Assembly (NCBI GenBank): GCA_937891465.1
Contig: CALAHF010000040.1
Location: forward strand, 1 to 53,712
Length of the DNA stretch: 53,712 bases
Direction: 5' to 3'
Source: an uncultured Verrucomicrobiales bacterium
Lineage (GTDB): Bacteria > Verrucomicrobiota > Verrucomicrobiia > Verrucomicrobiales > DEV007
Shown: in pieces, positions 6,647-47,255 of the stretch
Layout of the letters: each line of letters opens with the position of its first letter
Position numbering within the stretch: position 1 is the stretch's first letter
The notes under the pieces: generated by a model
Databases searched by the model: none
The model's input: only the letters and a program-made list of their open reading frames with translations
Told to the model about the DNA's origin: nothing
Translations under genes and position numbers: made by a program

Positions 6647-7051
6647 TTACAAACAAGAGAAGAGGAACAAAAAACGCGGAACGAAGGACCAAAAATTTAC
6701 CCGACAAATCGAAAAATTACAATCGCTCAAAACGCACCCGCAATTCAGCATTCACGAATCAATAGGGTTTGATCGATGAAGAGACCCTGTTGATTCGTAA
6801 AAACGGAGAAATCAAATTCACAAGTTTCTGCAAGCACTATGAGCAGTTTTGGAACTGCGAGAATGCTTCAGGCGAGAATTGATAGCGCAGACACCCCAAT
6901 GGGCGTTTTTCGTGAACTTGAATCTGCGATTCAATGGCTCGAACTCGAGGCAAAAGACCTCTTGATGGATTTGTAAAACCGGATTCCAACTCCGTGAAGT
7001 AAGATTGCAGAATGCTGCGGTTAAATTCTTGACCAATCTAACCCACAAGTC
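6647..7051. other. 405-bp divergent intergenic region
   Basis: This lies between the start of the kinase operon (minus) and the DUF2167 gene (plus), so it must hold promoters for both directions. It contains one copy of the 45-bp palindromic element (6754-6798). I saw no convincing gene. The minus-strand open frame at 6818-7048 lacks any recognisable pattern. No clear sigma-70 boxes could be assigned. Confidence 0.6.
6754..6798. repeat. 45-bp palindromic element, copy 1 (single, intergenic)
   Basis: Left arm ACGAATCAATAGGGT (6754-6768), 15-bp centre, right arm ACCCTGTTGATTCGT (6784-6798). The arms are inverted complements with a single mismatch, making this the best-preserved palindrome of the family. 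It is intergenic between two divergent operons. Confidence 0.9.
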
Positions 7052-14999: not shown

Positions 15000-15098
15000 A
15001 CAAAGCAACGGTATCCGTTCGACGAACATACCCCATCTGTACGTGAACACTTTTCGAACCAACAGTGTCCATTCATCGAACGCACCCTGTTGATTCGA
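15000..15098. repeat. palindromic element, copy 2 (99-bp doublet, intergenic)
   Basis: Two 45-bp units (15000-15044 and 15054-15098) are separated by 9 bp. The second unit ends in the conserved arm ACCCTGTTGATTCGA, and its left arm is TCGAACCAACAGTGT. The first unit is more diverged but keeps GTTCGACGAACATACCC. The doublet fills most of the gap between the TIM-barrel and antiporter genes. Confidence 0.85.
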
Positions 15099-21001: not shown

Positions 21002-22129
21002 CTACTTCCCTGATTTTGGGGCAATCCCAAACCGAAAAATCGTTACTTCATGAAGTTTTTCACCCGGGCGCAAAATAGTCGACGGAAAATTTGGTTTATT
21101 CGGGGAATCCGGAAAATGCTGCGTCTCAAAACAAATCGCCGGCCATTTCGGATCTTTCATATGATTTGCGGTGTAAATCTGCACCCCGGGCTGGGTGGTC
21201 AAAACCTCCATGACACGCCCCGTTTTTGGATCGGTGATACGAACCAATAGGGTTGGTTCGACGAACATACCCTGTTGCTTCGTGGAAACGAAACAGTGAT
21301 CAAATCCGCCAATTTCGATTTGCTCGATCGTATCTGAAATCGCATGCGGTTTACGAAAATCGAACGGCGTTCCCGCAACATTGATGAATTCGCCTGTAGG
21401 CACTTTCCGATCATCTATCGCGAGAATTTGATCCGATTTCAGTTCCAAAATGTGATCTGTAATCGTCGTTTTCGGATCACCAGATAGATTGAAATACGCA
21501 TGATTCGTCAAATTCAGGTGAGTTGGCTTCGTCGTAGTGGCCTGGTAATCAATCGTCAGCGAATTTTTATCGAGGCGATATTCGACCGTGAATGCAACCT
21601 CACCGGGAAACCCCTCGTGCCCGTCCGGACAGGTATGAGTCAGTTTCACCCCGCGCCAGCCTTCGCCATCGGTGAGCTCGGCCTTCCAAACCTGACTCTG
21701 AATTCCCGATTTTCCCCCATGGATGTGAACTTTCGTTTTTGGATTCACCGTCTCCAAATCGAAACGTGTTTCGTCCAGCGTGAAACCGCCGGTATCGATC
21801 CGGTTCGCAAATCGCCCGACGATATTTCCATTCAAGCCCCCTTTTTCCGCCGCCGCGAAATCAGGATAGGACAGCGTGATGTTTTTCGAAATCCCTTCGC
21901 GGTCTGAAGTTTCCAGCGACACCAACGTCGCTCCGAAAGTTGCGATTTTCACACGAACTCCCTTCTGATTTGTCAGCGCAAAAAGATCGACATGCTCACC
22001 GGATTTCGTCGTTCCCCACATTGCGCTGGTCACCGGCAGCGTCTGAGAATGCAACGTTCCTGCCACAAACGCGACACTTGCGAAAAAACCAGTTGTGACG
22101 AACTTTCTGACGTGATGAATCTGACTCAT
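21002..22129 (-). CDS. galM: exported aldose 1-epimerase carrying a palindromic-element peptide
   Basis: A 375-residue aldose epimerase (mutarotase) that interconverts alpha and beta anomers. It has a signal peptide (to about residue 28) and family motifs GRFANRID, TKVHIHGGKSG, THLNLTNHAYFNLSG, GGFDHCFV and EVLTTQPGVQIYTANHM, including the catalytic HAYFNL histidine region and a Glu in WPAICFETQHFPDSPN. Residues 283-297 (TKQQGMFVEPTLLVR) are exactly the translation of one 45-bp palindromic element at 21239-21283. They occupy the loop between DHCFV and the TDPKTGR strand, away from the motifs above, so activity is probably kept. Its first bases overlap the start of the divergent PQQ gene. Confidence 0.93.
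   Translation of the reverse strand: MSQIHHVRKFVTTGFFASVAFVAGTLHSQTLPVTSAMWGTTKSGEHVDLFALTNQKGVRVKIATFGATLVSLETSDREGISKNITLSYPDFAAAEKGGLNGNIVGRFANRIDTGGFTLDETRFDLETVNPKTKVHIHGGKSGIQSQVWKAELTDGEGWRGVKLTHTCPDGHEGFPGEVAFTVEYRLDKNSLTIDYQATTTKPTHLNLTNHAYFNLSGDPKTTITDHILELKSDQILAIDDRKVPTGEFINVAGTPFDFRKPHAISDTIEQIEIGGFDHCFVSTKQQGMFVEPTLLVRITDPKTGRVMEVLTTQPGVQIYTANHMKDPKWPAICFETQHFPDSPNKPNFPSTILRPGEKLHEVTIFRFGIAPKSGK
21239..21283. repeat. 45-bp palindromic element, copy 3 (single, inside galM)
   Basis: Left arm ACGAACCAATAGGGT, centre TGGTTCGACGAACAT, right arm ACCCTGTTGCTTCGT. The arms match as inverted repeats at 13 of 15 positions, and the centre is itself palindromic. It lies wholly inside the galM reading frame and supplies 15 codons with no stop. 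Confidence 0.92.
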
Positions 22130-23370: not shown

Positions 23371-24954
23371 TCACGCAGCCTTCTTTTTCCCGGCCGCGTC
23401 ATCGGACTTCCCTTTGTTTTTACCTTTTCCCTTTCCCGCAGGCTTCGCTTTCCTATTCTTCTTTGGCCGATTCTTGCGGCGTTCCGCAGCTTCAGTTTCA
23501 ACTTTTTCCATGTAGCGATCCACCACTTTCTGAATCCCCAGGCCGTTAAAAGCTTCAGCCGCATGATCTTCGGTTGAATCGAGAAAATACGTCATCACCT
23601 CGCGGTGCGCGATCAATTGCTCTTTGTGGTCTTCAGAATCAGCCAAGTTCACGAGGCAATCTGGATCGTTTTTGACGTCGTAAAATTCCTCCAACTCACG
23701 AAAATCAAAGAGCTTCATTCGCGCGGCCATTTTTGGATCCGTTTTGCCGAGTTCTTTCATTTTCTTGTAGGCAGCGGTGCCCAACGTTGCTCCGCTCACC
23801 TTGCGAGTGCCGTTCGACCAAGGATTGAAAATGTAGAGGTAATCCTTCGTTTCAACGGCTCGCATGGGGTGGCGGGCACCCCCGGAGTTCTCGTTGTAGA
23901 CTTTGAATACGGCATCTCGACCTTTTTGCGATTCCCCTTTGATGATGCTTGCAAATGAACGCCCATCAAAAACGGGCGCTTCTTCCATCCCGATGATTTC
24001 ACAAATGGTCGGCATAAAATCGACTGCAGAAACCATGTGCGTGTCATCAATCGAGCCCGGCTTGGTAACTCCCGGCCAACGCACGATCAGCGGCGTGTGG
24101 GTGCTGTGATGGTAGAGCTGAGTTTTCGCGAACGGCAACGGCATCCCGTGATCGGACAAGAAAATGACGATTGTATTTTCCCTTTCACCTGAGTTTTCGA
24201 GGGCATCAAGAATCGCTCCGAGCGCATCATCAGCCCGACGAACCGATGTGTAATACTGGGCAAGTTCTTTTCGAATGACGGGATCGTCGACGAGGAATCC
24301 GGGCACGGGGACTTCGTCTGCCGTAAATACCTTCGAAGAAGGATGCGGATCGTTTTCTTTCCAGAACGGCTTGTGAGGGTCTGAAATATTCACGTTCAGA
24401 CAAAACGGTTTTCCCGCTTCTTTAGCATTGCCAATTCCCTGCGCGGTCGAGCGCCCATAGCTTTCCACGTCTTTGATGTGCTCCTGACTTCCATCGACTC
24501 GCTGGGTTAAATCGATGTCCCAGTGGTAAGGGTGATACGGCGAGGAGTGCGAGACTTTCCCGCGAATCCCCACGAAATAACCTTCGCTTTGCAAGACATC
24601 AGGCAACGTTGGGTAGTCAGCGACTTTGATCGGATAAAATCCCTCAACGCCGGTGTTATGAGGGTAGCGGCCCGACCACATTACGTTTCGCGATGGATAA
24701 CAGTTCCCGACTTGAACGTGAGCATACTCAAACTTCAGACCTTCGCTCGCCAATCTATCCATGTTCGGCGTGGTGCCTTCGAGCTTCGAACCGTAAACGC
24801 CAACGGAATCAGCATTCATATCATCAACCGTGATGAGAAGCAGGTTGGGCTTCGGCGCGGCATCTTCATTTGCGGCATCCTGAGCAAACGAAAAACAGCT
24901 CAACAGGGAGCCGACGATGATCGGAACTGCGGTGTGACGGACAAACTTTAACAT
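23371..24954 (-). CDS. sulfatase with lysine/glycine-rich C-terminal tail
   Basis: A 527-residue exported type I sulfatase that hydrolyses sulfate esters. A signal peptide (to about FAQD) is followed by LLITVDDMNADSVGVYG (metal-binding Asp pair), the formylglycine motif CYPSR with Cys85 in VGNCYPSRNVMWSGRYP, and IVIFLSDHGMPL. The family resembles iduronate/choline-sulfatase-like enzymes, but the substrate is unknown. The last 45 residues are highly basic (KKNRKAKPAGKGKGKNKG) and resemble the tail frame of the broken pilin gene. A maturase for the Cys is not in the window. Confidence 0.92.
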   Translation of the reverse strand: MLKFVRHTAVPIIVGSLLSCFSFAQDAANEDAAPKPNLLLITVDDMNADSVGVYGSKLEGTTPNMDRLASEGLKFEYAHVQVGNCYPSRNVMWSGRYPHNTGVEGFYPIKVADYPTLPDVLQSEGYFVGIRGKVSHSSPYHPYHWDIDLTQRVDGSQEHIKDVESYGRSTAQGIGNAKEAGKPFCLNVNISDPHKPFWKENDPHPSSKVFTADEVPVPGFLVDDPVIRKELAQYYTSVRRADDALGAILDALENSGERENTIVIFLSDHGMPLPFAKTQLYHHSTHTPLIVRWPGVTKPGSIDDTHMVSAVDFMPTICEIIGMEEAPVFDGRSFASIIKGESQKGRDAVFKVYNENSGGARHPMRAVETKDYLYIFNPWSNGTRKVSGATLGTAAYKKMKELGKTDPKMAARMKLFDFRELEEFYDVKNDPDCLVNLADSEDHKEQLIAHREVMTYFLDSTEDHAAEAFNGLGIQKVVDRYMEKVETEAAERRKNRPKKNRKAKPAGKGKGKNKGKSDDAAGKKKAA

Positions 24955-28677: not shown

Positions 28678-29799
28678 CTAAATTAGCGCAGACGCGATTG
28701 GGTCCGCCAGCGCCTTTCCTTCTCGCGTTAGAAAAATACGCTCGTCGCGAATTTCGATCAGCCCCTGTTGGGTCATCGATTCAATAGGGTTGGATCGTAA
28801 AACCGTTTCAATCGAACAGGGTTCGTTCGTCGAACATACTCTATTGATTCGTAAACCTTCTCTCGTGCGAAGCTGCATCGCGATCGCTTCGATCCGACGA
28901 TCTTCCTCAGTCAAAGTTTCATGTTCGGTTTTTAAGGTCGGGCTTTCAACAAATCGAGCGGTGTCCGGCAGCGTTTTGGCTCGAATCCCATGAATCGTCG
29001 AGACGGCACCCGGACCAAGGCCCAGATAATCTTTTCCCGTCCAGTAAGCCCGGTTATGGCGAGATTCGAAGCCGCTTTGCCCGTAGTTTGAAATTTCGTA
29101 ATGCCCAAATCCGGCTGCTTCGAGATGATCGATTGCTTGATAAAACAGGTTGGCGTCGCGGTCCTCGTTTTCGTCGAGTTCACCACTTTCATGCCGCTTC
29201 AGGAACTCGGTATCTTCCTCGTAAGTGAGGTTGTAAGACGATACGTGCTCGGGTTTCAGCTCTGAGGTAACGATGTCCAGATCCTCTTGCCAAAGGGATT
29301 CGGTTTGTCCGGGGATTGAAAACATCAAGTCGATGGAAATGTTCATGAAACCAGCTTCGCGCAAGATTTCGAAGGCGATTTTTGCATCTTCGCCGGAATG
29401 ATCCCGGCCCAGAGTCTTTAGAATTCCTGTTTGAAAAGACTGAACTCCAAGGCTGATTCGGTTGATTCCGATCTCGCGCATGATGCGAGCTTTTTTCAAA
29501 TCGAAAGTCGCTGGGTTAGCCTCCAAAGTCACCTCCGTCTCGGGCGAAATGAAGGGGCGCAGGCCGCGGAACAACGTTTCCAAATGAACACTCGAAAGCA
29601 GACTGGGGGTTCCTCCGCCGAGGTAGAGGGTATCGAGTTTTTCAGCAAGAACTGACTTCTCGGCATCCAACTGGGAGAGAATCGCAGCGATAAAGGCGTC
29701 GTTCGCCAACTTGCCCGGCTTGTGTTTATAAAACGCACAGTAGGGGCAAATGTGATGGCAAAAGGGAATGTGAATGTAGCAATGAAAAACGGGGCTCAC
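28678..29799 (-). CDS. hemW: HemW-type radical SAM protein carrying palindromic-element peptide
   Basis: A 373-residue radical SAM enzyme of the HemW (haem chaperone, formerly HemN-like) family. The 4Fe-4S cysteines are C14, C18 and C21 in PFCHHICPYCAFY. LYLGGGTPSLL, TLEANPATFDLKKA, INRISLGVQSF, SIDLMFSIPGQT and GHYEISNYGQSG follow, then a winged-helix C terminus (LTREGKALADPIAS). From residue 317 on, about 25 residues (RINRVCSTNEPCSIETVLRS and after) are encoded by a palindromic-element doublet. Overall length is normal for HemW, so the element seems to have replaced rather than merely lengthened the segment between LRTREGL and QQGLIEI. Confidence 0.92.
   Translation of the reverse strand: MSPVFHCYIHIPFCHHICPYCAFYKHKPGKLANDAFIAAILSQLDAEKSVLAEKLDTLYLGGGTPSLLSSVHLETLFRGLRPFISPETEVTLEANPATFDLKKARIMREIGINRISLGVQSFQTGILKTLGRDHSGEDAKIAFEILREAGFMNISIDLMFSIPGQTESLWQEDLDIVTSELKPEHVSSYNLTYEEDTEFLKRHESGELDENEDRDANLFYQAIDHLEAAGFGHYEISNYGQSGFESRHNRAYWTGKDYLGLGPGAVSTIHGIRAKTLPDTARFVESPTLKTEHETLTEEDRRIEAIAMQLRTREGLRINRVCSTNEPCSIETVLRSNPIESMTQQGLIEIRDERIFLTREGKALADPIASALI
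28754..28852. repeat. palindromic element, copy 4 (99-bp doublet, inside hemW)
   Basis: The clear unit is 28808-28852 (centre TCGTTCGTCGAACAT, right arm ACTCTATTGATTCGT). A second unit at the same 54-bp period (28754-28798) is weaker but includes TCAATAGGGTTGGATCG and CCCCTGTTGGGTCATCGA. The 9-bp spacer AAAACCGTT resembles the spacer AAAGCCATT of copy 6. The 28754-28775 end may be native hemW sequence. Confidence 0.75.
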
Positions 29800-33425: not shown

Positions 33426-34916
33426 CTAGTCCAGCCCATGTTGCTCTCGTGTTGCAGCCACTAACTTCTGATCCAGTGCCGCATCACTTCCGGCCAGGTT
33501 CTGCATTTCCTGCGGATCATTTTCGTGATCGTAAATTTCCACCCCAACTTGTTTGTTCGATTTTTTCTCGATCCAAACCACCGTGCGATACCGAACTGTC
33601 CGCATGGCATAGCCCATAAATTTCGTACCAAACCGGGCGTATTGGCTCAACGCCACTCCATTTGCCAGCGCTTGGGGGCTTTCTAAAACCGGCAGCAAAC
33701 TCTCACCCTGCAAATGTTTCGGTTTTTCAACTGCTGCAAAATCACAGATTGTCGGATACAAATCCACCAGTTCAGCCAATGCTTTGGTTCGCCCGGGTTT
33801 CAATTGGGGATGCGCGACAATCATCGGCACCCGAGTCGCAATTTCGAAATTCGTCATTTTTCCCCAAGCACTTTGCTCACCCAGATGCCAGCCGTGGTCT
33901 GACCACAAAATCACGATCGTATCTTCACCCACTTCCGCAAGCAGCCGCCCAATTTGAGCGTCCACGTAACTGACGCACGCCGCATAGGCGTGCAGTAGCT
34001 CCAATTGCAATTTTGTTGAGATTTCGCCCTCCGGCGGCACACCTTGATAACTCCGCATCTCGAAACCGTTCCACGCGATCGCTTCTTCACGGTTCGGGCG
34101 CGTCGGCATCGTAAGCCCTTGTCTCTTTGCCCCACCAACATAACCGTCCGAATTAAACCACGCCATCACGGGCGATTTTTTGGCTGGGAGCGGATTCTTC
34201 GCCAACCACGTTTCATCTGGCTGATACAAATCAAAATATTTCTTCGGTGCGACGAAGGGCAAATGCGGGCGCCGAAATCCAACTGCCACAAACAGCGGTT
34301 TCTTGATCGAATCGCTAGTTTTCAATGTTTCGATCACTGAACTCGTCATTCTACCTGCGAACAAAAAATCGTCTGCGACATCAGGATTTTGCATCACCGG
34401 ACACTCCCACCGTTCAGCGATGATGGACTCGCTCTTTTCTTTCGAATCGACCACTTCCCACATCTCCCGCTCCCGTCCCGGCGATGATGGCACTGACCAA
34501 TCCGCCGGATCATCCCAACCATCGTGATAAATTTTTCCCCAGCTCTGGGTGTGATAGCCACCTTCGTTTTTCAACCACTGCGCCATCGAAACTGCCTCCG
34601 GCCGGGCTTCTCGAAATCGAATCACGTCCTTTTCATTATTCGAAAACACATTCACCGCGTTCGGACGAAGCCCCGTCATCAGTGATAAACGAGACGTGCC
34701 ACACTTCGCATACTGACAATACGCTCGTTCAAAAACCACTCCCCGAGCCGCCAGCTTATCGATATTCGGCGTGGACACGCGATCGTCGCCGTAACACCCC
34801 AGCATGGGTCGAAGATCGTCAATCGCGATCATCACGATGTCCGGCTTTTCAGCCGCCATCGCAGAAAAACTACTGACAAGGAATGTGAAAAGAAGAACCC
34901 GATTCATCATCAGCAT
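33426..34916 (-). CDS. sulfatase (iduronate-2-sulfatase-like) with CGTSR motif
   Basis: An exported sulfatase of about 496 residues. The signal sequence is VLLFTFLVSSFSAMA. Motifs: IVMIAIDDLRPMLGCYG, AKCGTSRLSLMTGLRPN, VGFRRPHLPFVAPKKYF and VILWSDHGWHLGEQSAWGK, which place it with IDS-type sulfatases. The formylglycine signature has Thr where Pro or Ala is usual (C-G-T-S-R). The start is uncertain among GTG 34919, ATG 34916 and ATG 34907. ATG 34916 has AAGGA upstream at a good distance and overlaps the stop of the upstream sulfatase (TGATG), so the two are coupled. Confidence 0.9.
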   Translation of the reverse strand: MLMMNRVLLFTFLVSSFSAMAAEKPDIVMIAIDDLRPMLGCYGDDRVSTPNIDKLAARGVVFERAYCQYAKCGTSRLSLMTGLRPNAVNVFSNNEKDVIRFREARPEAVSMAQWLKNEGGYHTQSWGKIYHDGWDDPADWSVPSSPGREREMWEVVDSKEKSESIIAERWECPVMQNPDVADDFLFAGRMTSSVIETLKTSDSIKKPLFVAVGFRRPHLPFVAPKKYFDLYQPDETWLAKNPLPAKKSPVMAWFNSDGYVGGAKRQGLTMPTRPNREEAIAWNGFEMRSYQGVPPEGEISTKLQLELLHAYAACVSYVDAQIGRLLAEVGEDTIVILWSDHGWHLGEQSAWGKMTNFEIATRVPMIVAHPQLKPGRTKALAELVDLYPTICDFAAVEKPKHLQGESLLPVLESPQALANGVALSQYARFGTKFMGYAMRTVRYRTVVWIEKKSNKQVGVEIYDHENDPQEMQNLAGSDAALDQKLVAATREQHGLD

Positions 34917-36475
34917 CACTTATTTTCCTTTTCGTAATCGCCCGGATTCACCCACCCCGCTGGGGTCTTTTCACCTTTTTCAATCATCCGCTCGTAATAT
35001 TTTGCAGCAGGGCCCGACACCGGATACTCATCAAAAATAGACCCCTTCCCTTCCATCCGTGGATCTTCCTGCTTTGCCAGCTCCGCTTCCATCTGCGTGA
35101 TCAGCTCTTTTTTCAACTCCGCAAGATCAGGGGCATCCGCCAAATTTGTCATGCACTCGCGATCTTCCGGCACCCGATACATTTCCTCTGCAGGACGCTT
35201 CCCGAAATTCCAATCCCAAAATTTCGGAGCTGATCCATCGCGACGCGCATCAAGAATCCACGTTTTCGTCGGGCTTCCGTCTGTGTTGAGATATCCCGTA
35301 ATCGGATCTCCCACCGGCCAGCGATCGATTTCGTAATTTTTCAAATACAGCATTCCGTTTTTCACGATTCCACGAATCGGATATCCCAAATCATTAGGCC
35401 GCCCGGTGTCATGCCGCTCTTTTCCAATCAGCACGTGATCCCGAGCCGCGATTACCTGCCCCGATTTTTCAGAATTAAAAATATCCGTCAAACTCCGCCC
35501 CGACGGCGCGGCCATTCCCGTTGCTGAAAGCGGCACTTTAGCGATTTCCAGAAACGTCGGCGCGTAATCAATGAAACTCACATAATCCTGAATCTCGCGC
35601 CCCGGATTTTTAATCCCCTTTGGCCACATGATCGCCAGCGGCAAGTGGTTCGACATCTCATACTCCTGACCTTTGATCCGGGGAAACGGCATCCCGTTGT
35701 CCGCCGTCACCACAACGATGGTATTCTCAAGCAACCCGCGCTTTTCCAGAGAAGCCAACATTCGCACCAAATGATTGTCGAAGTGCTCAATCTCAAACGC
35801 ATAATCCAGCATATCATTTCGAGTGGTCTCGTTGTCCGGCCAAAAATCAAAAACCTTATCGATCTCTTCCAGCTTCTTTCCGTTTTTCACACCTGCACCG
35901 TATTCATAGCGCCGATGCGGCTCCGTCGAGCCATACCAGAAACACCACGGCTTTTCACCCTTTGCCGCGTCATCAAGAAACAGATCAAAATTGCCCGCGT
36001 AATCGTTCGAAGAGATCGCTTTCGCCGGCGGCTTCGCTTTTAGTTTGTTAAACACTTTTCCCGTCAATTGCCGGGGATTTCCATCCACATCATGAGCCGA
36101 TCCCGGCGCCCACCCCTTTGCGGTGTACCCCGTAAAATATCCGTTTTTACCCAACGCTTCGACATACGTTTCAAACTTCGCAGGGAAAAACGGCATGTGA
36201 TTGGCCGCCTCTTCCAACTGCCACGAATTTCGGCCCGTCAGAATACAAGCCCGTGAAGGCGCACACTTTGCATTCGGTGTGTAGGCATTGTGAAACAGCA
36301 ATCCCTCGCGAGCTACGCGATCAAAGCCCGGTGTCGAAACCCACTTCGTTCCGTAAGCCCCCGCATGCGGCCACGATTGATCATCCGAAATACAGAACAG
36401 AATATTCGGACGATCTTCAGCAAAAACGGAAGCACCCAAAAGAACAAAGAGAAAAGCAAACGAAGGGATTTTCAT
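34916..36475 (-). CDS. sulfatase (heparan N-sulfatase-like)
   Basis: A 519-residue exported sulfatase with signal peptide [16 protein letters not shown]. Motifs: [19 protein letters not shown], formylglycine Cys71 in [34 protein letters not shown] and DVFRGRSL-type text late in the chain. The arrangement resembles sulfamidase/arylsulfatase A-like proteins. The substrate is unknown. A single palindromic element ends 4 bp upstream of the start codon, so the usual ribosome-site position is occupied by element sequence. It is followed without a gap by a second sulfatase. Confidence 0.92.
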
Positions 36476-36479
36476 TTCT

Positions 36480-36524
36480 ACGAATCAACAGGGTATCTTC
36501 GACGAATCAACCCTATCTGATCGA
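36480..36524. repeat. 45-bp palindromic element, copy 5 (single, before a sulfatase start)
   Basis: Left arm ACGAATCAACAGGGT, centre ATCTTCGACGAATCA, right arm ACCCTATCTGATCGA. The arms match at about 9 of 15, so it is an older or eroded copy. It fills the 62-bp gap between the BNR-type gene and the sulfatase. Confidence 0.85.
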
Positions 36525-36537
36525 GCGACAGCGAATT

Positions 36538-37530
36538 TCAATCAAACGCAACCTTCGCCAGATAAATGCACGTCTTCTCTTCGTGAGATGAGTAATAGCT
36601 GATCCACAAGAAATCGTCTTTCCAAACCATTCCCGCATAACTGGTATCGCCGCCGGATGGCAACTTAAGACACTCGGTAAGCGTGTTTTTCTCCGCGTCG
36701 AGCCATACCAGCGATGTCCGCGCTCCTCCATCATACAAACGCACCGCCGCAAGAATCCGCCCATCGGCAAGCTGAATCATCTGCGGACCGCCAATTCGTT
36801 TGTTCAAATCGGTCCACGTCCATGAATCATACGGCGGCTTCGACTTCCCAAGAACCGCCATCTTGTCCCCCGTCTCATGCCGGAAAAGGCACATGGCAGA
36901 ATCATCTTCAAAAAACAAAATCGTGTGCTCACCAACCCCTTTGTGAATATTCACTTCAGGAATCAACGTTTCATATTTTTCGCCGTCATCGCTCCGATAA
37001 AATCGCGCGATTCGCTCAGTTCGTTCACGGTCAGTTCGATACCCCATCGAATAACATTTCCCCTTGTGCCACTGTGAGCGCCACAACCAGAAACCGGGGT
37101 CGCCAATAGACTTTTCCTCAGTCCAGGTCTTGCCGTCATCGTCGGAAAACCAGGCAAATGAGTGATAACGGATCTCTTTTTCTGCCTGCATTCCCGCGCC
37201 GTTCAACATTAGCCGACCGCTCGGAGTCACTACCAATTTCGCATCGCGAAGGTCTTCGATATCATGTTCGATCAGAGCGAGTGATTCCCACTTTTTTCCG
37301 TCGTCAGAGACAATCACCCGAATAGAGCCATCCGGCGAAACGTGCCTGCCTCCTTCCCTGAAAACACAATACCAACGCCCTTTATGAAACAGCAGGTCAG
37401 TAAAAGCATTGTGGGCAGCTTTGTCCCAGATTCGACTGGATTCGACAAGGCGTGGCTTCGAATTTCGCTGGGCTGAAACCGACGTAAAAGCAGCGCAGCA
37501 GGTGATCAGAATAATGAGAGACAGCTTCAT
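36538..37530 (-). CDS. exported BNR-repeat (sialidase-like) protein
   Basis: A 330-residue protein with signal peptide IILITCCAAFTSVSAQ. It is a six-bladed-propeller candidate with Asp-box motifs (SPDGSIRVIVSDDGKKW, SDDDGKTWTEEKS) and the strand texts LVVTPSGRLMLNG and DGRILAAVRLYDGG. It resembles exo-alpha-sialidase-like proteins, but the Arg triad of true sialidases cannot be confirmed by eye. It sits directly upstream of two sulfatases on the same strand, which supports a role in trimming a complex sulfated glycan. Confidence 0.85.
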   Translation of the reverse strand: MKLSLIILITCCAAFTSVSAQRNSKPRLVESSRIWDKAAHNAFTDLLFHKGRWYCVFREGGRHVSPDGSIRVIVSDDGKKWESLALIEHDIEDLRDAKLVVTPSGRLMLNGAGMQAEKEIRYHSFAWFSDDDGKTWTEEKSIGDPGFWLWRSQWHKGKCYSMGYRTDRERTERIARFYRSDDGEKYETLIPEVNIHKGVGEHTILFFEDDSAMCLFRHETGDKMAVLGKSKPPYDSWTWTDLNKRIGGPQMIQLADGRILAAVRLYDGGARTSLVWLDAEKNTLTECLKLPSGGDTSYAGMVWKDDFLWISYYSSHEEKTCIYLAKVAFD

Positions 37531-40201: not shown

Positions 40202-41073
40202 ATGAAAAATCTCGCCCTCATCCTTCTCGGTATCGCATTTGCGTTCACCACATCAATCGCCCGCGAGTTTCATGATTTTACGAACAAGGCAGGTAAAACC
40301 ATCACTGCCGAGTTTCTCGATTACCAGGATGGCAAAGTCAAAATTCGAGCCAAAGGCAAAGTGTTCGAAATTACCGCGACTGACCTTTCGGAGGAAGATC
40401 AGACATTTTGACCGAATGGGACCTAAAACGAAAAGGAAATGAAGAATCTCTTTATTATAGCGAGTTGGTTTTTGAAGACGATTTCTCCGCCGAAGGATTT
40501 GGCGAGCGTTGGAGTCATTACAAAAGCGAAAGCGAAATTCAAGATGGCGTTTTGATCGGGAAGACCATTGATATCAACGATCACGCTGGAGTCGAAGCGA
40601 TCCGTTGTGAAGGCCGCCAGGACATGGAAGTCTCCGTGAAATTTAAATTCGCAGGTCCCGAGGCCGAGCGCTTCAACGTCTGGTTCGACGACAAAGATTT
40701 CAAAGGCGCTCACGCCGGTCACGTCACCAGCATCTCGATCTGGTCTACCGGCGGCAACATTCAGGATGCAAAAACCGGCAACATGGAAAACTCCATTTAT
40801 GAAATGAAAAAATCTCCCGCCGGGTTCGACGAGGCCACCAAAGAATTGCTCAAAACAAAGGCGGCGAATTTGGAAGTCGATTTCGAAAAGAAAAAAGACG
40901 AGTGGTACGAACTGCTCATTCGCACCAAAGGCCCTCTCGTCACCGTTTTCATCGATGGCGACGAAGTCGGTTCACTCGAATCGGAAGGAAATGCTCACCC
41001 CACAAAATCCCAAGTCAGTTTGACCACGAACATCAGCAACGTTCACTACGACGAGGATAAAGAGACCGAGTAA
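40202..41073 (+). CDS. SHD1 + DUF1080-like protein split by a -1 frame break
   Basis: ATG 40202 opens a signal peptide (LILLGIAFAFTTSIARE) and an SHD1-like domain (TNKAGKTITAEFLDYQDGK, DLSEEDQTF), then stops at 40409-40411. From 40408 a second frame continues with LTEWDLKRKGNEE and a concanavalin/DUF1080-like domain (FEDDFSAEGFGERWSHYKS, FNVWFDDKDFKGAH, VTVFIDGDEVGS) to 41073. One added T in the T4 run at 40406-40409 joins them as SEEDQTFLTEWD, the natural SHD1 ending. It is either a sequencing or mutational frame break or, less likely, two coupled proteins (a TTG start overlapping TGA). Confidence 0.78.
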
Positions 41074-41088: not shown

Positions 41089-41187
41089 ACGGACAGATAA
41101 GGTTGGTTCGACAAACATACCCTGTTGATTCGAAAAGCCATTTCGAACGTACCCTGTTGGTTCATCGAACATACCCTGTTGCTTCGA
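41089..41187. repeat. palindromic element, copy 6 (99-bp doublet, convergent intergenic)
   Basis: Unit one (41089-41133) has centre TGGTTCGACAAACAT and right arm ACCCTGTTGATTCGA. Unit two (41143-41187) has centre TGGTTCATCGAACAT and right arm ACCCTGTTGCTTCGA. The spacer AAAGCCATT is 9 bp. The unit-one left arm is diverged. The doublet fills the gap between the SHD1/DUF1080-like gene and the PSD1 pseudogene, where a terminator would be expected. Confidence 0.88.
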
Positions 41188-41202: not shown

Positions 41203-43515
41203 TCAATCCACATACAGAAACTCGTTCGACATGAACAATGCTTGAGCGACCAGCGGCCATGGACTGACACCAGCGCGAGTTTTTTCGAGATCAACAAATT
41301 TTCCAAAACGGTCGTGCTTGACTTGGTCTGCGGGACGATGGAGAACGGCGTTGAAAATTCCATCAATTCGCTGATCGCGAGTCACTCCTTTTTCAAATTT
41401 AAGTCGATCAACCAAAGCAGCTGCCTGATCAGTGACGAAATTTGAATTCATCGAAAACAAAGCCTGCGGTGCGACAATGCTTTCAGTACGGCGCTCTTGC
41501 GATTGCACGGGTGAAGGAAAATCGAAAGCTCGAAGGGTGGGATCCAAATTGAAACGGTTGATGTAGCCGTAAACGCTTCGCCGCGGGGTGTAATCATTGC
41601 CCCACAATTCGCCCGAACGTCCCCGCATTCGTGAATCGAGAGCGCCGGAAACCGCAAGCAGTGAATCTCGAATTTCTTCAATTTCGAGCCGCTTCAAATT
41701 TGCGCGATGATACAGTTTATTCTCCACATCAAGTTCCGCCATGTCATCGCGAACAACGCTGCGTTGCTGATAAGTTCGCGACGTAACAATTGTTCGCACG
41801 AGATGTTTCAGTGACCATCCGTTTTCGACAAAATCCGCCGCCAGCCAATCGAGTAATTCAGGATGACTTGGTCTGGCTCCCTGCAATCCAAAATCGGACG
41901 GCGTTTCGACGAGATAACTTCCAATGAGCGCCCCACCCAAATTCGATTCACAAATACACGAGCTGTGAGCGGGTTCTTGGGATCCGCAATTTTGTTCGCA
42001 AGATCAAGCCGACCTGAATTGTCTTCGGAAAAAGCAGGTTGTTCGGGGTCGATGATTTTCAAAAATCGCCGAGGAACTTTGTCGCCTTTTTGGGAGGCTT
42101 CCCCCCGAATGAAAATAACCGGGCTAACGGGTTTCTTTGCCTCGCTGATCGACATAGCGCAAGCAGGAGCTCCATCGTGAGTCATCAGAAGTTCGGCGAG
42201 TTTGGTCTGTTCTATCAGATCGGAAACGGAGCGATTGTTGCCTTTTTTCTTCTTGTTCCCAGCGTCTTTGATTTCCTTCTCGATGGAGGCCAGCTTTTTC
42301 TCATAATCGTCCTTTTGCGCTTTGTCAGGCTGGTAACTGGCCATCACCGGGAACGCTTCGATCGCCCACGGCACGGGTCGATTCAGTGAATTAAAAACGC
42401 CGTAGAGTGAATAATAATCCGCTGTCGGAATAGGCTCAAATTTGTGATCGTGGCAACGTGAACAGGCTACCGTCAAGCCGAGTAGGCCTCGAGTCGTAGC
42501 ATCAATCACATCGTCGACGAAGTCCGCAGACATTCCGCGATGCGGCGACACTCCAATAAAACCAGGCCCGGCAATCTCGGGATCCCCTTTTTTTATGGCC
42601 CATCATATCTGCGGCGAGCTGCTCGCGAATGAACTGATCGAACGGCTTGTCGGCGTTGAACGAATCGATCACGTAGTCCCGAAAGGTGAAGGCGAAGGGA
42701 TAATAACGTGGGGTTTTAGTGTCGGGCCGGTAGGTGTTTGCGGTATCGGCATAACGAGCAACGTCGAGCCAAAGCCTCGCAAAATGCTCACCAAACCGTG
42801 GCGAATCGCTCAACTCAACAATGTAAGAATCGAGCGGTTTTTCGTAATCAGAAAGCGATTCGGGAGGCAATCCCGTGAGGTCATAAGCCAATCGGCGAGT
42901 CAGGGTTTTTCCGGTGGCCGGAGGAGATTGACTGATCCCCTTCTCGGTAAATTTGGCGTAAATAAACTGATCGATTGGGTTTTCATTCCACACCTTCAGA
43001 GGTGCCCAAGGCGGTTCGATCGCTTTTACCGGTTGGAAGGCCCAGTGCTTTTCTGCTTCACCAAAAATGGCTTCCTGATCGCCCAGGCGGGAAAATTTGG
43101 TTTCACCCATGTCCTCAGCTGATCCCGGAGCTCCCCGCAGAATCCACGACTTCAGCAACTCAATTTCGCCGTCCTCGAGCTTGTACTTCGGCGGCATTTC
43201 GTAATCTTCATCCTTATATTGAATCGCGGTGAAAAGCAGCGAGTCGCCAAGATTCTCAGGAATAACGGCCTTTCCCGTATCTCCGCCTTCCAACTACCCC
43301 GTTTCCCGATCGAGCAGCAGTCCGCCTTTCTGGGCGTCCTCAACTTCTGAATGACATTCGTAGCAATGCTTGACGAGAATCGGTCGAATATTGGTTTAGA
43401 AAAACGCAGCACCGGTTTCACCCTTTTTTCCAGGCAGCGCCACACTACTCCCGGGCACTGCCAGAAGGCAGGCGCCAAGAATAAAGCTGAGAAAATAGAA
43501 TAAATTTCGCGTCAT
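41203..43515 (-). pseudogene. decayed PSD1-type (PSCyt1-DUF1549-DUF1553) gene
   Basis: Start ATG 43515 with signal peptide FYFLSFILGACLLAVPGSS. In the same frame are two nonsense codons (43396-43398 TAA before TNIRPILVKHCYECH, and 43294-43296 TAG between DRETG and LEGGDTGK, probably from TGG). PSCyt1 and DUF1549 ([33 protein letters not shown]) are otherwise clear. A one-base gain in an A7 run (42588-42594) and a small deletion with a shift near 41930-41940 (after VNRIW, before GGALIGSYLVETPSDFG) break the rest. DUF1553 ends intact at 41203 (ISFLYVD-type end). Four separate lesions make real decay more likely than error. No DUF1501 partner sits beside it. Confidence 0.88.
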
Positions 43516-43634: not shown

Positions 43635-46600
43635 ATGACTAGAATGATTCTTCGAAGCGTGCTGGCGTTGATCCTGCTTATTTCGAGCGGGCTGAAGGCG
43701 GAGGACTATCGCAAATCGATTCGCAACACATCTCCCATTCTTTATTGGGACTTTGAAAATCAGCCGGAAGAAACCGGAACTATCAAAGGCGATGTGAAAT
43801 TCGGAGTTTCTGGTCCGACTTCAAAAACCGCCAAGTTGCTGCCGGCAAAAAACAAGGGAGCCACATTCGGCGGTGATGGTGCTCGAATCGTGGTGAAAGA
43901 CCCCGGGCCGGGCAGCCAGTTTGATTTCGAAAACGGAGATCCAATCGCGATCGAATGCTGGGTAAATCCAACCGAAATTTCTTCCGGGGCTCACGCTTAC
44001 ATCATCGGAAAGGGACGCACGGGAAACAGCGGATTTTCAGCAAACAACCAAAACTGGGCGCTTCGTTTGACGGGTGAAAAAGGAGATGGGATGCCGAATT
44101 TCCTTTTCCGAAGTCGCGATGGAAAAGTAATGAAGGGCGATTTTCATCGATGGAAAGCAGATAGCGGAATCAAACTGAACTCCGGCTGGCATCACTTGGC
44201 TATCACTTATGTTTTTGGAAAACCGGATTCAGTTCGCACATGGATCGATGGCGAAAAAGTGACCGGCACCTGGGACATGGGCGGAAAAACTGAACAAGAA
44301 CCGTTTGTTGATGACGACGAAATTTGGGTCGGTTCAACATCGAAAGGAAGTGCCAGTAACAGTTTTCGGGGATCCATTGATGAGCTTGCCGTCTACCGAC
44401 TCGAATTTGACGAAGAACACCTCGCGGCTCGCGTGAAGATTCCCGAGTATCAGCCACTGGTCGATACCGCCGCTATTCCTGACGGCAAGGTTCGTGTCGA
44501 GATCATTGAGAATCTCGGGGTGAAGAAAAAGTGGCCGCGACGCTTTCCGGATGCCGATCCGAAGCAGGAATTTATCGACGATTCCTTCGCGTTCTATCAG
44601 ATGCCGCAAAAATACAATGACACCGGTCTGCGTGACGATCGCTCCAATCCATTGATGGTTCGGGCCAGCACAAAAGCCATGTTACCAGAAAAAGATTTGC
44701 GAATTGTCCTGCGAACGCGGGGAGCCGGCCGTCTGTGGATGGACGGAAAAATGATCGCCGAAACCGCATTTGCCTACACGGGTGGGGGAGCTCACAACAG
44801 CGTGATGGCAACGACATTGCGGCACTCTCCAGAAATGCGAATCCTCGGCCCGGGCGATCGGGAAAGTCTTGTGATTCTAAAAGGAGACGGGAAGCCTCAC
44901 GTGTTTGTCCTCGAAACAATTTTAGGCAACGGCTCCGTTCGCGCATCTCTTGGTGAAACAAGTGTCAGCATTTCTGAAGCAGGTGGAGAGTTTTATTTAC
45001 TGTCTCCGAAAGAAGAAAAAGTGTGGCTCTCTGAAAAGGGGTGGGACGATTTCCGCCAGCGGCGCATCGGCTTTTTTCGTGACCTGGATTCAAAAAAACG
45101 ACGAGTCGCCGGTTCAAACGAACAGAATTATTGGAAACAACGCCATGCTTACGCTTCCAAAATTGTCAGTGGAAAATTAAAGACGAACGAGATTGATAGC
45201 CTCTTAAAAGCAAGCTGGGAAAAAGCTGCCAGCGAAGGACCAACAAGCGCCTTGGCAAAAGAAGTGCAGGCCATTTTTTCTGAAAAGTGTTTCCGTTGCC
45301 ATGGCGAAAAGGTAAAGGGTGGACTCCGGCTGGATGATCACGATGCCATTCTAAAAGGCGGCGATTCGGAATCGCCCGCTCTTGTCGCGTGTAAGCCGGA
45401 AGAGAGTTTTCTCGTCGAACTAATCCATCCTGAAGCAGAAGATCGAATGCCGCCGAAGGGAGATGCGCTTTCGGAAAAAGAACGCGCCACGATCCAGGAA
45501 TGGATCGCTAAAGGGGCGGAACGATTTGATAGGGTTGACTCATCGATCGAACCCTCTTTGATCGTGAATGATTTACATTTTCTTCGCCGCGCAACGCTGG
45601 ACATTGTGGGTCTTGTCCCAAGCCCCGAAGAGATTGAAGCCTTTCTAGCAGATGACGAATCCCGCCGCGCCAATGCGATTGATCGCCTTCTGGCTGATGA
45701 TCGCTGGGCCGATCACTGGGTCAGTTACTGGCAGGATGTATTGGCGGAAAATCCCAATATTCTCAAACCCACGTTGAACAACACGGGACCGTTTCGTTTC
45801 TGGATTTACGAATCGCTCCTCGATAACAAACCGATGGACCAGTTCGTAACTGAATTGGTAAAAATGGAAGGAAGCTCACTCATCGGAGGTCCGGCAGGTT
45901 TTGGTTTGGCCTTTCAAAATGACGTGCCGATGGCGGCAAAAGCTAACACGATCGGAACGGCTTTTCTCGGAGTCGAAATGAAGTGCGCCCGGTGTCATGA
46001 TGCGCCGTATCACGAATCAAAACAGCGGGATCTATTTGAACTGGCGGCGATGCTGAATCAGGAAGGAATCAAGTTGCCCACGAGTTCAACGGTGCCGGCA
46101 GGCTCAATTCCGGCCAGTCGAAAACCCCTCATTGAAATTACTTTGAAGGCTGGTGAAACGATCGAACCCCGCTGGCCGTTTGGTGATTTATCGGGAGCGG
46201 CCACAACTCCCGTCTGGGCAGAAGTTGAATCGATGCGGGAAAAGGTCGCGTGGAAACTCACTTCTCCGCACAATGAGCGCTTTGCTCAAGTCATGGCAAA
46301 CCGAGTGTGGAAACGCCTGTTGGGGACGGGATTTGTTGATCCGGTCGATGATTGGGAAGCGGGGAAACCGACCCACCCAAAATTGCTTGGTCGATTGGCA
46401 GATCATTTTGTGGCCACTGGTTATGACTTGAAGGAAATGGTACGCGTGGTGATGAACTCAGAAGCGTATCAGCGGGAATCACGTCCGGAGGTGATCGGTC
46501 AGGACCCTACGTTTTCTCATCAAATCCAACGTCGCATGAGTGCAGAACAGGTCGTCGACTCTCTGTTTTCGATTTCTGGAAAACCGCTCGATTCCGAAGA

Positions 46601-47255
46601 ACTCACCATGGACAAGGACGGAACGCAGGTTGAGAAAAACATGATCAATCTCGGCCTGCCGCGGCGTGCGTGGGAATTCACGTCGCTTTCGAACGAGCGC
46701 GACCGACCGAGTTTGGCTATTCCAAAAGCGCAGGCAGTGGTTGATGTGTTAGAGAATTTTGGATGGCGAAGCGCACGGGCCGAGCCAAAAAGCGAACGCG
46801 AAACGGCTCCAAATGTTCGTCAGTCCGCCATCATCGCAAACGGATTGATGGGTCGTTGGGTTACTACATTGACGGAGGAGCACGCGTTGACCAAATTGGC
46901 CCTCCGCCCCGAGATGACGCTGGACGAATTTATCGATTCCGTTTTCTTACGCATTCTCTCCCGCTTGCCCTCAGCATCGGAACGGATTTTATACGCGGAG
47001 CTGCTGAGCGAAGGTTTTGATTCACGAATCGTTCCAGAAGCCAAGCGTCAGCGGCCAAAAAAGTGGGATCAACTTGGGCACGTCGCGTGGTCAAATCACC
47101 TTTCGGCTGAGGCAAACTCGATTAAAATAGAAATGGAAAAGCGGGCCGCGATCGGAGATTTTCCAACGGTTGCCCTGAAACAAACTTGGCGAGAGAACGT
47201 CGAAGACATGCTCTGGGCGATGTTAAATTCGCCTGAGTTTATCTTCGTGCCGTAA
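43635..47255 (+). CDS. LamG + PSCyt1 + DUF1549 + DUF1553 secreted cytochrome protein
   Basis: A 1206-residue exported protein. Signal peptide (LRSVLALILLISSGLKAED) is followed by a LamG domain (about 30-270; FENQPEETG, IECWVNPTEIS, WHHLAITYVFG), an unassigned region (about 280-480; RLWMDGKMIAETAF), a PSCyt1 haem domain (IFSEKCFRCHGEKVKGGLRL, EDRMPPKGDALSEKE, WIAKGAER), DUF1549 (FLRRATLDIVGLVPSPEE, CARCHDAPYHESK) and DUF1553 (FAQVMANRVWKRLLGTGFVDP, QRRMSAEQVVDSLFSISG). Residues 630-644 (RFDRVDSSIEPSLIV), in the linker after PSCyt1, are one translated 45-bp palindromic element. It pairs with the DUF1501 gene 18 bp downstream. Confidence 0.93.
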   Translation: MTRMILRSVLALILLISSGLKAEDYRKSIRNTSPILYWDFENQPEETGTIKGDVKFGVSGPTSKTAKLLPAKNKGATFGGDGARIVVKDPGPGSQFDFENGDPIAIECWVNPTEISSGAHAYIIGKGRTGNSGFSANNQNWALRLTGEKGDGMPNFLFRSRDGKVMKGDFHRWKADSGIKLNSGWHHLAITYVFGKPDSVRTWIDGEKVTGTWDMGGKTEQEPFVDDDEIWVGSTSKGSASNSFRGSIDELAVYRLEFDEEHLAARVKIPEYQPLVDTAAIPDGKVRVEIIENLGVKKKWPRRFPDADPKQEFIDDSFAFYQMPQKYNDTGLRDDRSNPLMVRASTKAMLPEKDLRIVLRTRGAGRLWMDGKMIAETAFAYTGGGAHNSVMATTLRHSPEMRILGPGDRESLVILKGDGKPHVFVLETILGNGSVRASLGETSVSISEAGGEFYLLSPKEEKVWLSEKGWDDFRQRRIGFFRDLDSKKRRVAGSNEQNYWKQRHAYASKIVSGKLKTNEIDSLLKASWEKAASEGPTSALAKEVQAIFSEKCFRCHGEKVKGGLRLDDHDAILKGGDSESPALVACKPEESFLVELIHPEAEDRMPPKGDALSEKERATIQEWIAKGAERFDRVDSSIEPSLIVNDLHFLRRATLDIVGLVPSPEEIEAFLADDESRRANAIDRLLADDRWADHWVSYWQDVLAENPNILKPTLNNTGPFRFWIYESLLDNKPMDQFVTELVKMEGSSLIGGPAGFGLAFQNDVPMAAKANTIGTAFLGVEMKCARCHDAPYHESKQRDLFELAAMLNQEGIKLPTSSTVPAGSIPASRKPLIEITLKAGETIEPRWPFGDLSGAATTPVWAEVESMREKVAWKLTSPHNERFAQVMANRVWKRLLGTGFVDPVDDWEAGKPTHPKLLGRLADHFVATGYDLKEMVRVVMNSEAYQRESRPEVIGQDPTFSHQIQRRMSAEQVVDSLFSISGKPLDSEELTMDKDGTQVEKNMINLGLPRRAWEFTSLSNERDRPSLAIPKAQAVVDVLENFGWRSARAEPKSERETAPNVRQSAIIANGLMGRWVTTLTEEHALTKLALRPEMTLDEFIDSVFLRILSRLPSASERILYAELLSEGFDSRIVPEAKRQRPKKWDQLGHVAWSNHLSAEANSIKIEMEKRAAIGDFPTVALKQTWRENVEDMLWAMLNSPEFIFVP
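45521..45565. repeat. 45-bp palindromic element, copy 7 (single, inside PSD1)
   Basis: Left arm ACGATTTGATAGGGT, centre TGACTCATCGATCGA, right arm ACCCTCTTTGATCGT. The arms match at 11 of 15. It is in frame between the haem domain and DUF1549. The peptide RFDRVDSSIEPSLIV aligns with the hemW-encoded RINRVCSTNEP, and the in-frame TGA of the consensus has become a sense codon. Confidence 0.78.

Follow-up and report, generated by a model that had tools for sequence, protein, structure and literature searches.

A palindromic repeat read in frame within galM of a Verrucomicrobiales bacterium, probably a translated copy of an untagged REPIN-like family

The galM gene of an uncultured Verrucomicrobiales bacterium contains a double palindrome that is translated as part of the enzyme. 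We consider it likely that this copy, now translated, belongs to an untagged family of REP dimers (REPIN-like) specific to one Verrucomicrobiales lineage, and that it took the place of native residues. The window analysed is the whole of contig C40 (53,712 nt) of the 5.97-Mb, 229-contig assembly G000, whose nearest named relatives are Verrucomicrobiales MAGs. Here a palindrome that is otherwise intergenic and present in high copy number has clearly been incorporated into conserved enzymes. The unchanged protein length, which we regard as the most interesting feature of the family, poses the question whether intragenic REP-type repeats are inserted or written over existing sequence.

Results

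The copy in galM

Read on the minus strand from 21283 to 21239, the 43-nt element and one base on each side of it form the 15 codons ACG AAG CAA CAG GGT ATG TTC GTC GAA CCA ACC CTA TTG GTT CGT, which encode TKQQGMFVEPTLLVR (galM residues 283-297) in a stop-free frame flanked by GFDHCFVS and ITDPKTGR. The copy departs at a single position from the 34 specified positions of the self-complementary palindromic consensus CGAANNAACAGGGTNNGTTCGNCGAACNNACCCTGTTNNTTCG, and as RNA it folds with -19.6 kcal/mol (z -4.1). The first-pass annotation had proposed that a dispersed palindromic repeat in a non-rickettsial host supplies 15 in-frame galM residues between DHCFV and TDPKTGR with no stop. All of this is borne out by the open frame, by the agreement of 33 of 34 positions with the family, by the minus-strand reading and, for the dispersal, by 403 strict matches in the genome of this Verrucomicrobiales host.

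The host protein is a genuine aldose 1-epimerase according to its Pfam match (Table 1) and its Foldseek match to human GALM (E 4.4e-36, 36% identical). In the AlphaFold model (pLDDT 91.9 overall, 74 in the block with the element loop) the element segment comes directly after the substrate-binding Asp-His motif; judging from the motif, its Asp would correspond to Asp243 of L. lactis galM, a mutated active-site residue. The supposition that the element residues might form a loop holds for residues 283-292, which are modelled as a beta-hairpin loop, and fails for residues 293-297, which form the second strand of the same hairpin. In order to compare the peptide with what the site accepts, a profile score from galM homologues was used: element-encoded peptides as a class beat 99.3% of random 15-mers at the galM site and the actual peptide scores above almost all of them. 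Such a fit would be expected were copies to persist solely at sites that accept them. On its sequence the gene looks functional, with the element at a length-variable loop. The tryptic peptide predicted for the element region of the G000 protein is QQGMFVEPTLLVR.

Table 1 Family copies in the window and their host genes. Positions are those of the window; a dot denotes no strand assigned.
Feature	Position	Strand	Remark
Intergenic copy, divergent gap	6755..6797	.	Fold z -6.1
Intergenic copy, tandem gap	15055..15097	.	Window repeat search
galM, aldose 1-epimerase, element host	21002..22129	-	PF01263, E 6.6e-78
Double-palindrome element, 43 nt, in galM	21240..21282	-	1/34 mismatches to family consensus
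hemW-like gene, second host	28678..29799	-	PF04055 and PF06969
Second translated copy, HemW-like radical SAM gene, other frame, RINRVCSTNEPCSIE	28809..28851	-	4/34 mismatches
Intergenic copy, 14 bp after stop of gene 36538-37530 (-)	36481..36523	.	Window repeat search
Intergenic copy, first of tandem doublets with 54-nt period, convergent gap	41090..41132	.	16 bp after stop at 41073
Intergenic copy, second tandem doublet with 54-nt period, same convergent gap	41144..41186	.	16 bp after convergent-gene stop at 41203

Unit anatomy and flanks

The repeat unit is a 21-nt stem-loop, CGAAnnAA-CAGGG-TTnnTTCG, with 8-nt arms (CGAAnnAA/TTnnTTCG) and a 5-nt loop (CAGGG or CCCTG). The element is a 43-bp imperfect hairpin made up of two such units in opposite orientation, separated by a 1-nt spacer. 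Adjacent units lie exactly 22 nt apart in 179 cases in G000 and in about 137-142 cases in its congener G001, with inverted orientation in 117/179 and 131/142 cases, respectively, and doublets at this spacing outnumber singlets (169 vs 132 in G000; 139 vs 59 in G001). Doublets of G000 also pair at an exact further spacing of 32 nt (40 cases), which gives the 54-nt tandem seen at 41090-41186 and is almost absent from G001. The inner dinucleotides of the arms occur as discrete variants (TG, CT, AT, GC), and the left and right inner arms tend toward non-complementary, unequal hetero-arms. The arms are genus-specific and the core, AACAGGGT, is constant. The unit junction reads CGTC/GACG in 111/126 copies of G000 and 58/141 of G001. 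In G001 an A-run precedes and a T-run follows the hairpin in the manner of a terminator, and in G000 the order is reversed; a terminator role was rejected as a general explanation, the T tract being present in the flanks of G001 but not of G000.

Size and distribution of the family

The half palindrome has 261 matches at up to 3 mismatches in its own genome and 0 for the reversed control. A broader doublet pattern, fixed just at the core and at the CGA/TCG ends and allowing up to 3 mismatches, gave 403 doublets in G000 and 777 in G001 with 0 control matches. Elsewhere the same pattern found 23-206 doublets in genus g12 (four species), 0-39 in genus g2 and 2 in g13, whereas the remaining genera of the family that were searched had none; controls were 0 throughout. 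By these counts the repeat is confined to a small number of genera within a single Verrucomicrobiales family. At up to 11 mismatches, 229 doublets were found in 1.216 Mb of G000 vs 1 in a dinucleotide-resampled control, and 173 in 0.687 Mb of G001 vs none in resampled sequence; scaled from the sampled sequence, this corresponds to roughly a thousand copies per genome when decayed ones are counted. Single 21-nt units gave 485 matches in 1.2 Mb vs 56 in resampled sequence.

The genome counts against their controls establish that the repeat family is real, and they exclude a chance match in galM. Chance resemblance of the galM codons to the repeat has the protein-level compatibility of element peptides with the galM site in its favour and nothing further, whereas 33/34 positions match, 1.9 Mb of resampled sequence yielded one such match at up to 11 mismatches, and other galM genes stand at 18-21 mismatches; we regard its probability as negligible. 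An Rfam search of the window matched no known RNA family, and no description of this repeat family was found in the papers searched.

The window contains seven family copies (Table 1). In addition, a weak palindrome match (9 mismatches) at 45522-45564 within a 1206-aa ORF (43635-47255) could be either a coincidence or an old copy. A separate 47-nt stretch, 68-70% alike, occurs in three window ORFs (24134-24180, 33880-33926 and 35682-35728) and is probably a motif of paralogous enzymes.

Genomic location

Most of the 229 doublets in G000 are intergenic (184), with 22 across a gene edge and 23 inside called genes, in sequence of which 84% is called coding; outside the window, genes were called with an in-house ORF scorer. 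In both G000 and G001, copies lie at a median of 16-17 bp downstream of a stop codon. In one orthologous gap (C163/L258) the position of the element agrees between the two species, and this intergenic copy appears to have been inherited by both. Most element-bearing gaps of either species have no matching element in the other.

Mobility

There is no target-site duplication: the best flank identity is 0.34 vs 0.27 expected, with no consistent offset. Tags are not conserved at the outer ends of the units, where GTAG was found in 9/126 copies (G000) and 6/141 (G001) and CGTC in 7/126 and 14/141, respectively, and membership in the GTAG/CGTC-tagged REPs was rejected for this reason. A Y1/RAYT transposase was likewise rejected as the mover, as it shows no association with the element. 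Matches to Y1 are near-absent in the element-richest genomes (one interrupted in G000, one partial in G001 with its 777 elements) and plentiful in G026 (17) and G019 (16), both with 0 elements; we infer that no RAYT moves the element. The G000 match is a remnant of a Y1 reading frame (L189, G000:C171), interrupted by a stop, that lies downstream of a dehydratase-like gene with no palindrome beside it.

Probable replacement rather than addition in galM

The galM of G001, 72% identical, carries the element at the same codons in a more decayed form (5 mismatches, peptide KQGSLAEPTLFGR). Since the same copy is at the same place, the element predates the split of these two species, which are the genus as known here and include no recent pair of empty and filled galM. 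The segment GxDH..DPxSGR has 31 residues in G000 and 30 in G001, the two carriers of the element; in ten element-free relatives it has 27-32. Because element-free homologues have segments of equal length, the 15 residues are not additional. The galM DNA of the ten further relatives has no element trace, 18-21 mismatches being background, and the element residues overlie conserved strand positions. Taken from the homologue lengths and the AlphaFold model, the element residues stand in for a native loop and beta-strand.

The first-pass annotation had the palindrome enter galM as an extra 15-residue insert. This part has to be given up: the alignment has no break in length at the element boundaries, and the equal-length homologues rule out a simple 15-residue insertion. 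The assignment of the residues to the element itself held, as the peptide is absent from galM of every relative without the element (E, P and R recur in one of them, L033). The parallel that had been drawn to Rickettsia is kept for a palindrome translated in frame and lost for an extra insert, the length of the galM segment being unchanged.

Coding copies other than galM

The hemW element is at the same site in both congeners (4 mismatches in G000, 3 in G001), and relatives without it are ~10-12 residues shorter, a net gain of about 12 in both congeners. Further clear coding copies are in panC, a squalene/phytoene-synthase-like gene, a cytochrome-type planctomycete gene, CysS, a GlpD-like gene and a HEAT-repeat gene, where names beyond Pfam and PDB matches are our own reading. 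N-terminal coding cases are uncertain, since starts were called by a simple scorer. The element segment of panC has 63 residues vs mostly 64-66 in relatives, that is, no gain. Over stretches matched with G026, an element-free reference (no strict match anywhere in its genome), the differences are ~+1 in CysS, ~+9 in the GlpD-like gene, ~+10 in the HEAT gene and ~-6 in a DUF1549-like stretch that is possibly a paralogue. The loop with the squalene-synthase-like copy varies from 52 to 70 residues among relatives. None of the compared coding copies has +15 residues, and the gains in hemW (~+12) and in the GlpD-like and HEAT genes (~+9-10) make some coding copies look inserted.

Insertion of a mobile palindrome into galM with a gain of 15 residues, in the manner of the Rickettsia palindromic elements (RPEs), would fit a dispersed repeat that is read in frame in a variable loop, and hemW in the same window did gain about 12 residues. 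However, galM, panC and CysS have no net gain, no target-site duplication was found, and the galM residues overlie conserved strand positions; we therefore regard this as improbable.

One frame is used by 12/15 coding copies (up to 8 mismatches), for which the binomial chance is about 3e-5. This frame reads x-[NI]-Q-Q-G-x-F-x-E-x-T-L-L-x-R, and among intergenic copies of G000 it is the least often open (0.48 vs 0.58 and 0.69). The preference for one frame is thus strong. In the structural models the repeat contributes to a beta-hairpin in galM and forms a helix-turn-helix in panC.

In panC, four g12 species have the element, with arms in the style of their own genus, at the same site as in G000. 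It was not found in panC of g2, g16, g7 and g18 (g2 judged from the protein alignment). The same-position palindrome in two genera, each with genus-specific arms (loci L270, L275, L277, L280 and L281), could reflect concerted evolution, repeated acquisition or transfer.

The panC pattern also bears on a further explanation, in which the palindrome has a function of its own as a DNA or RNA site (a protein-binding array or a bidirectional terminator) and changes in situ through selected point mutations, in genic and intergenic sequence alike. The genus-style versions at one panC site fit such a site, as do the constant spacings of 22 and 32 nt (21-22 bp being two helical turns), the genus-specific arms around a constant core, the unchanged protein lengths, and the A/T tracts around G001 copies, which resemble those of bidirectional terminators. 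Set against these, 34 specified bases make a very long site for drift to have assembled, A and not T follows the hairpin in G000, hemW gained length, and most intergenic sites are not common to both species. On balance we find this explanation rather unlikely, though less so than insertion.

Discussion

Under the reading that we prefer, that of a translated copy of an untagged REP-dimer family, selection would normally favour, or at least tolerate, copies that lie directly downstream of stop codons, a position at which an mRNA hairpin may be harmless or useful. A minority in coding sequence would survive only where the encoded peptide can replace native residues, almost always in one frame. 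In galM, the copy would have been acquired before the divergence of the two species known from the genus and would have displaced the native loop and beta-strand after the Asp-His motif with no net change in length. It would now be ordinary protein sequence retained by selection on galM. The replacing event could have been gene conversion, a template switch, or an insertion with a compensating deletion. A more far-reaching version, which we offer tentatively and hold to be possible rather than probable, is that the repeat spreads by overwriting DNA, through gene conversion or template switching at partly similar sites, and not by inserting, with length kept where the peptide resembles the native one.

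Comparison with known repeat systems

REPs are stem-loop units of 20-40 nt in hundreds of copies, <20 bp after gene 3' ends, with unequal (heterodimer) pairing preferred in the doublets of many families (PMC3733652), and REPINs are inverted REP doublets that form hairpins (PMC3116915). The present family has a palindromic unit within 20-60 nt and hundreds of copies that are mostly intergenic near gene 3' ends, as REPs in the broad sense do; like REPINs, it has inverted pairs in one hairpin with doublets more numerous than singlets. The post-stop location, the unequal doublets and the intragenic copies add to the likeness. In contrast to REPs and REPINs, the element has neither a GTAG or CGTC tag nor a linked Y1/RAYT gene (no cognate Y1 tyrosine transposase was found in the genome), its spacer is 1 nt whereas most REP doublets have longer ones, and its coding copies mostly leave protein length unchanged.

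MITEs, usually 70-300 bp (PMC3733652), are likewise short inverted repeats, dispersed and lacking their own transposase, but the element is 43 bp and comes with no target-site duplication and no parent transposase that could be found. RPEs are palindromic repeats that occur in frame within genes unrelated to one another and whose encoded peptide is conserved (reviewed in PMC10969869). In-frame reading within unrelated genes with a preferred peptide frame is common to both; compared by description, RPEs are ~150 bp and described as insertions, whereas the element is 43 bp, mainly intergenic and of equal length in galM, and the residues added to its hosts are about 0 in galM, panC and CysS and about +12 in hemW.

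Intragenic REPs have been published, and for the GTAG type their number is highest in a verrucomicrobium, Opitutus terrae (PMC3733652). Since such repeats are already described, in Opitutus terrae as in Rickettsia, the new point is not the phenomenon of a REP within a gene: the repeat is a new, untagged family.
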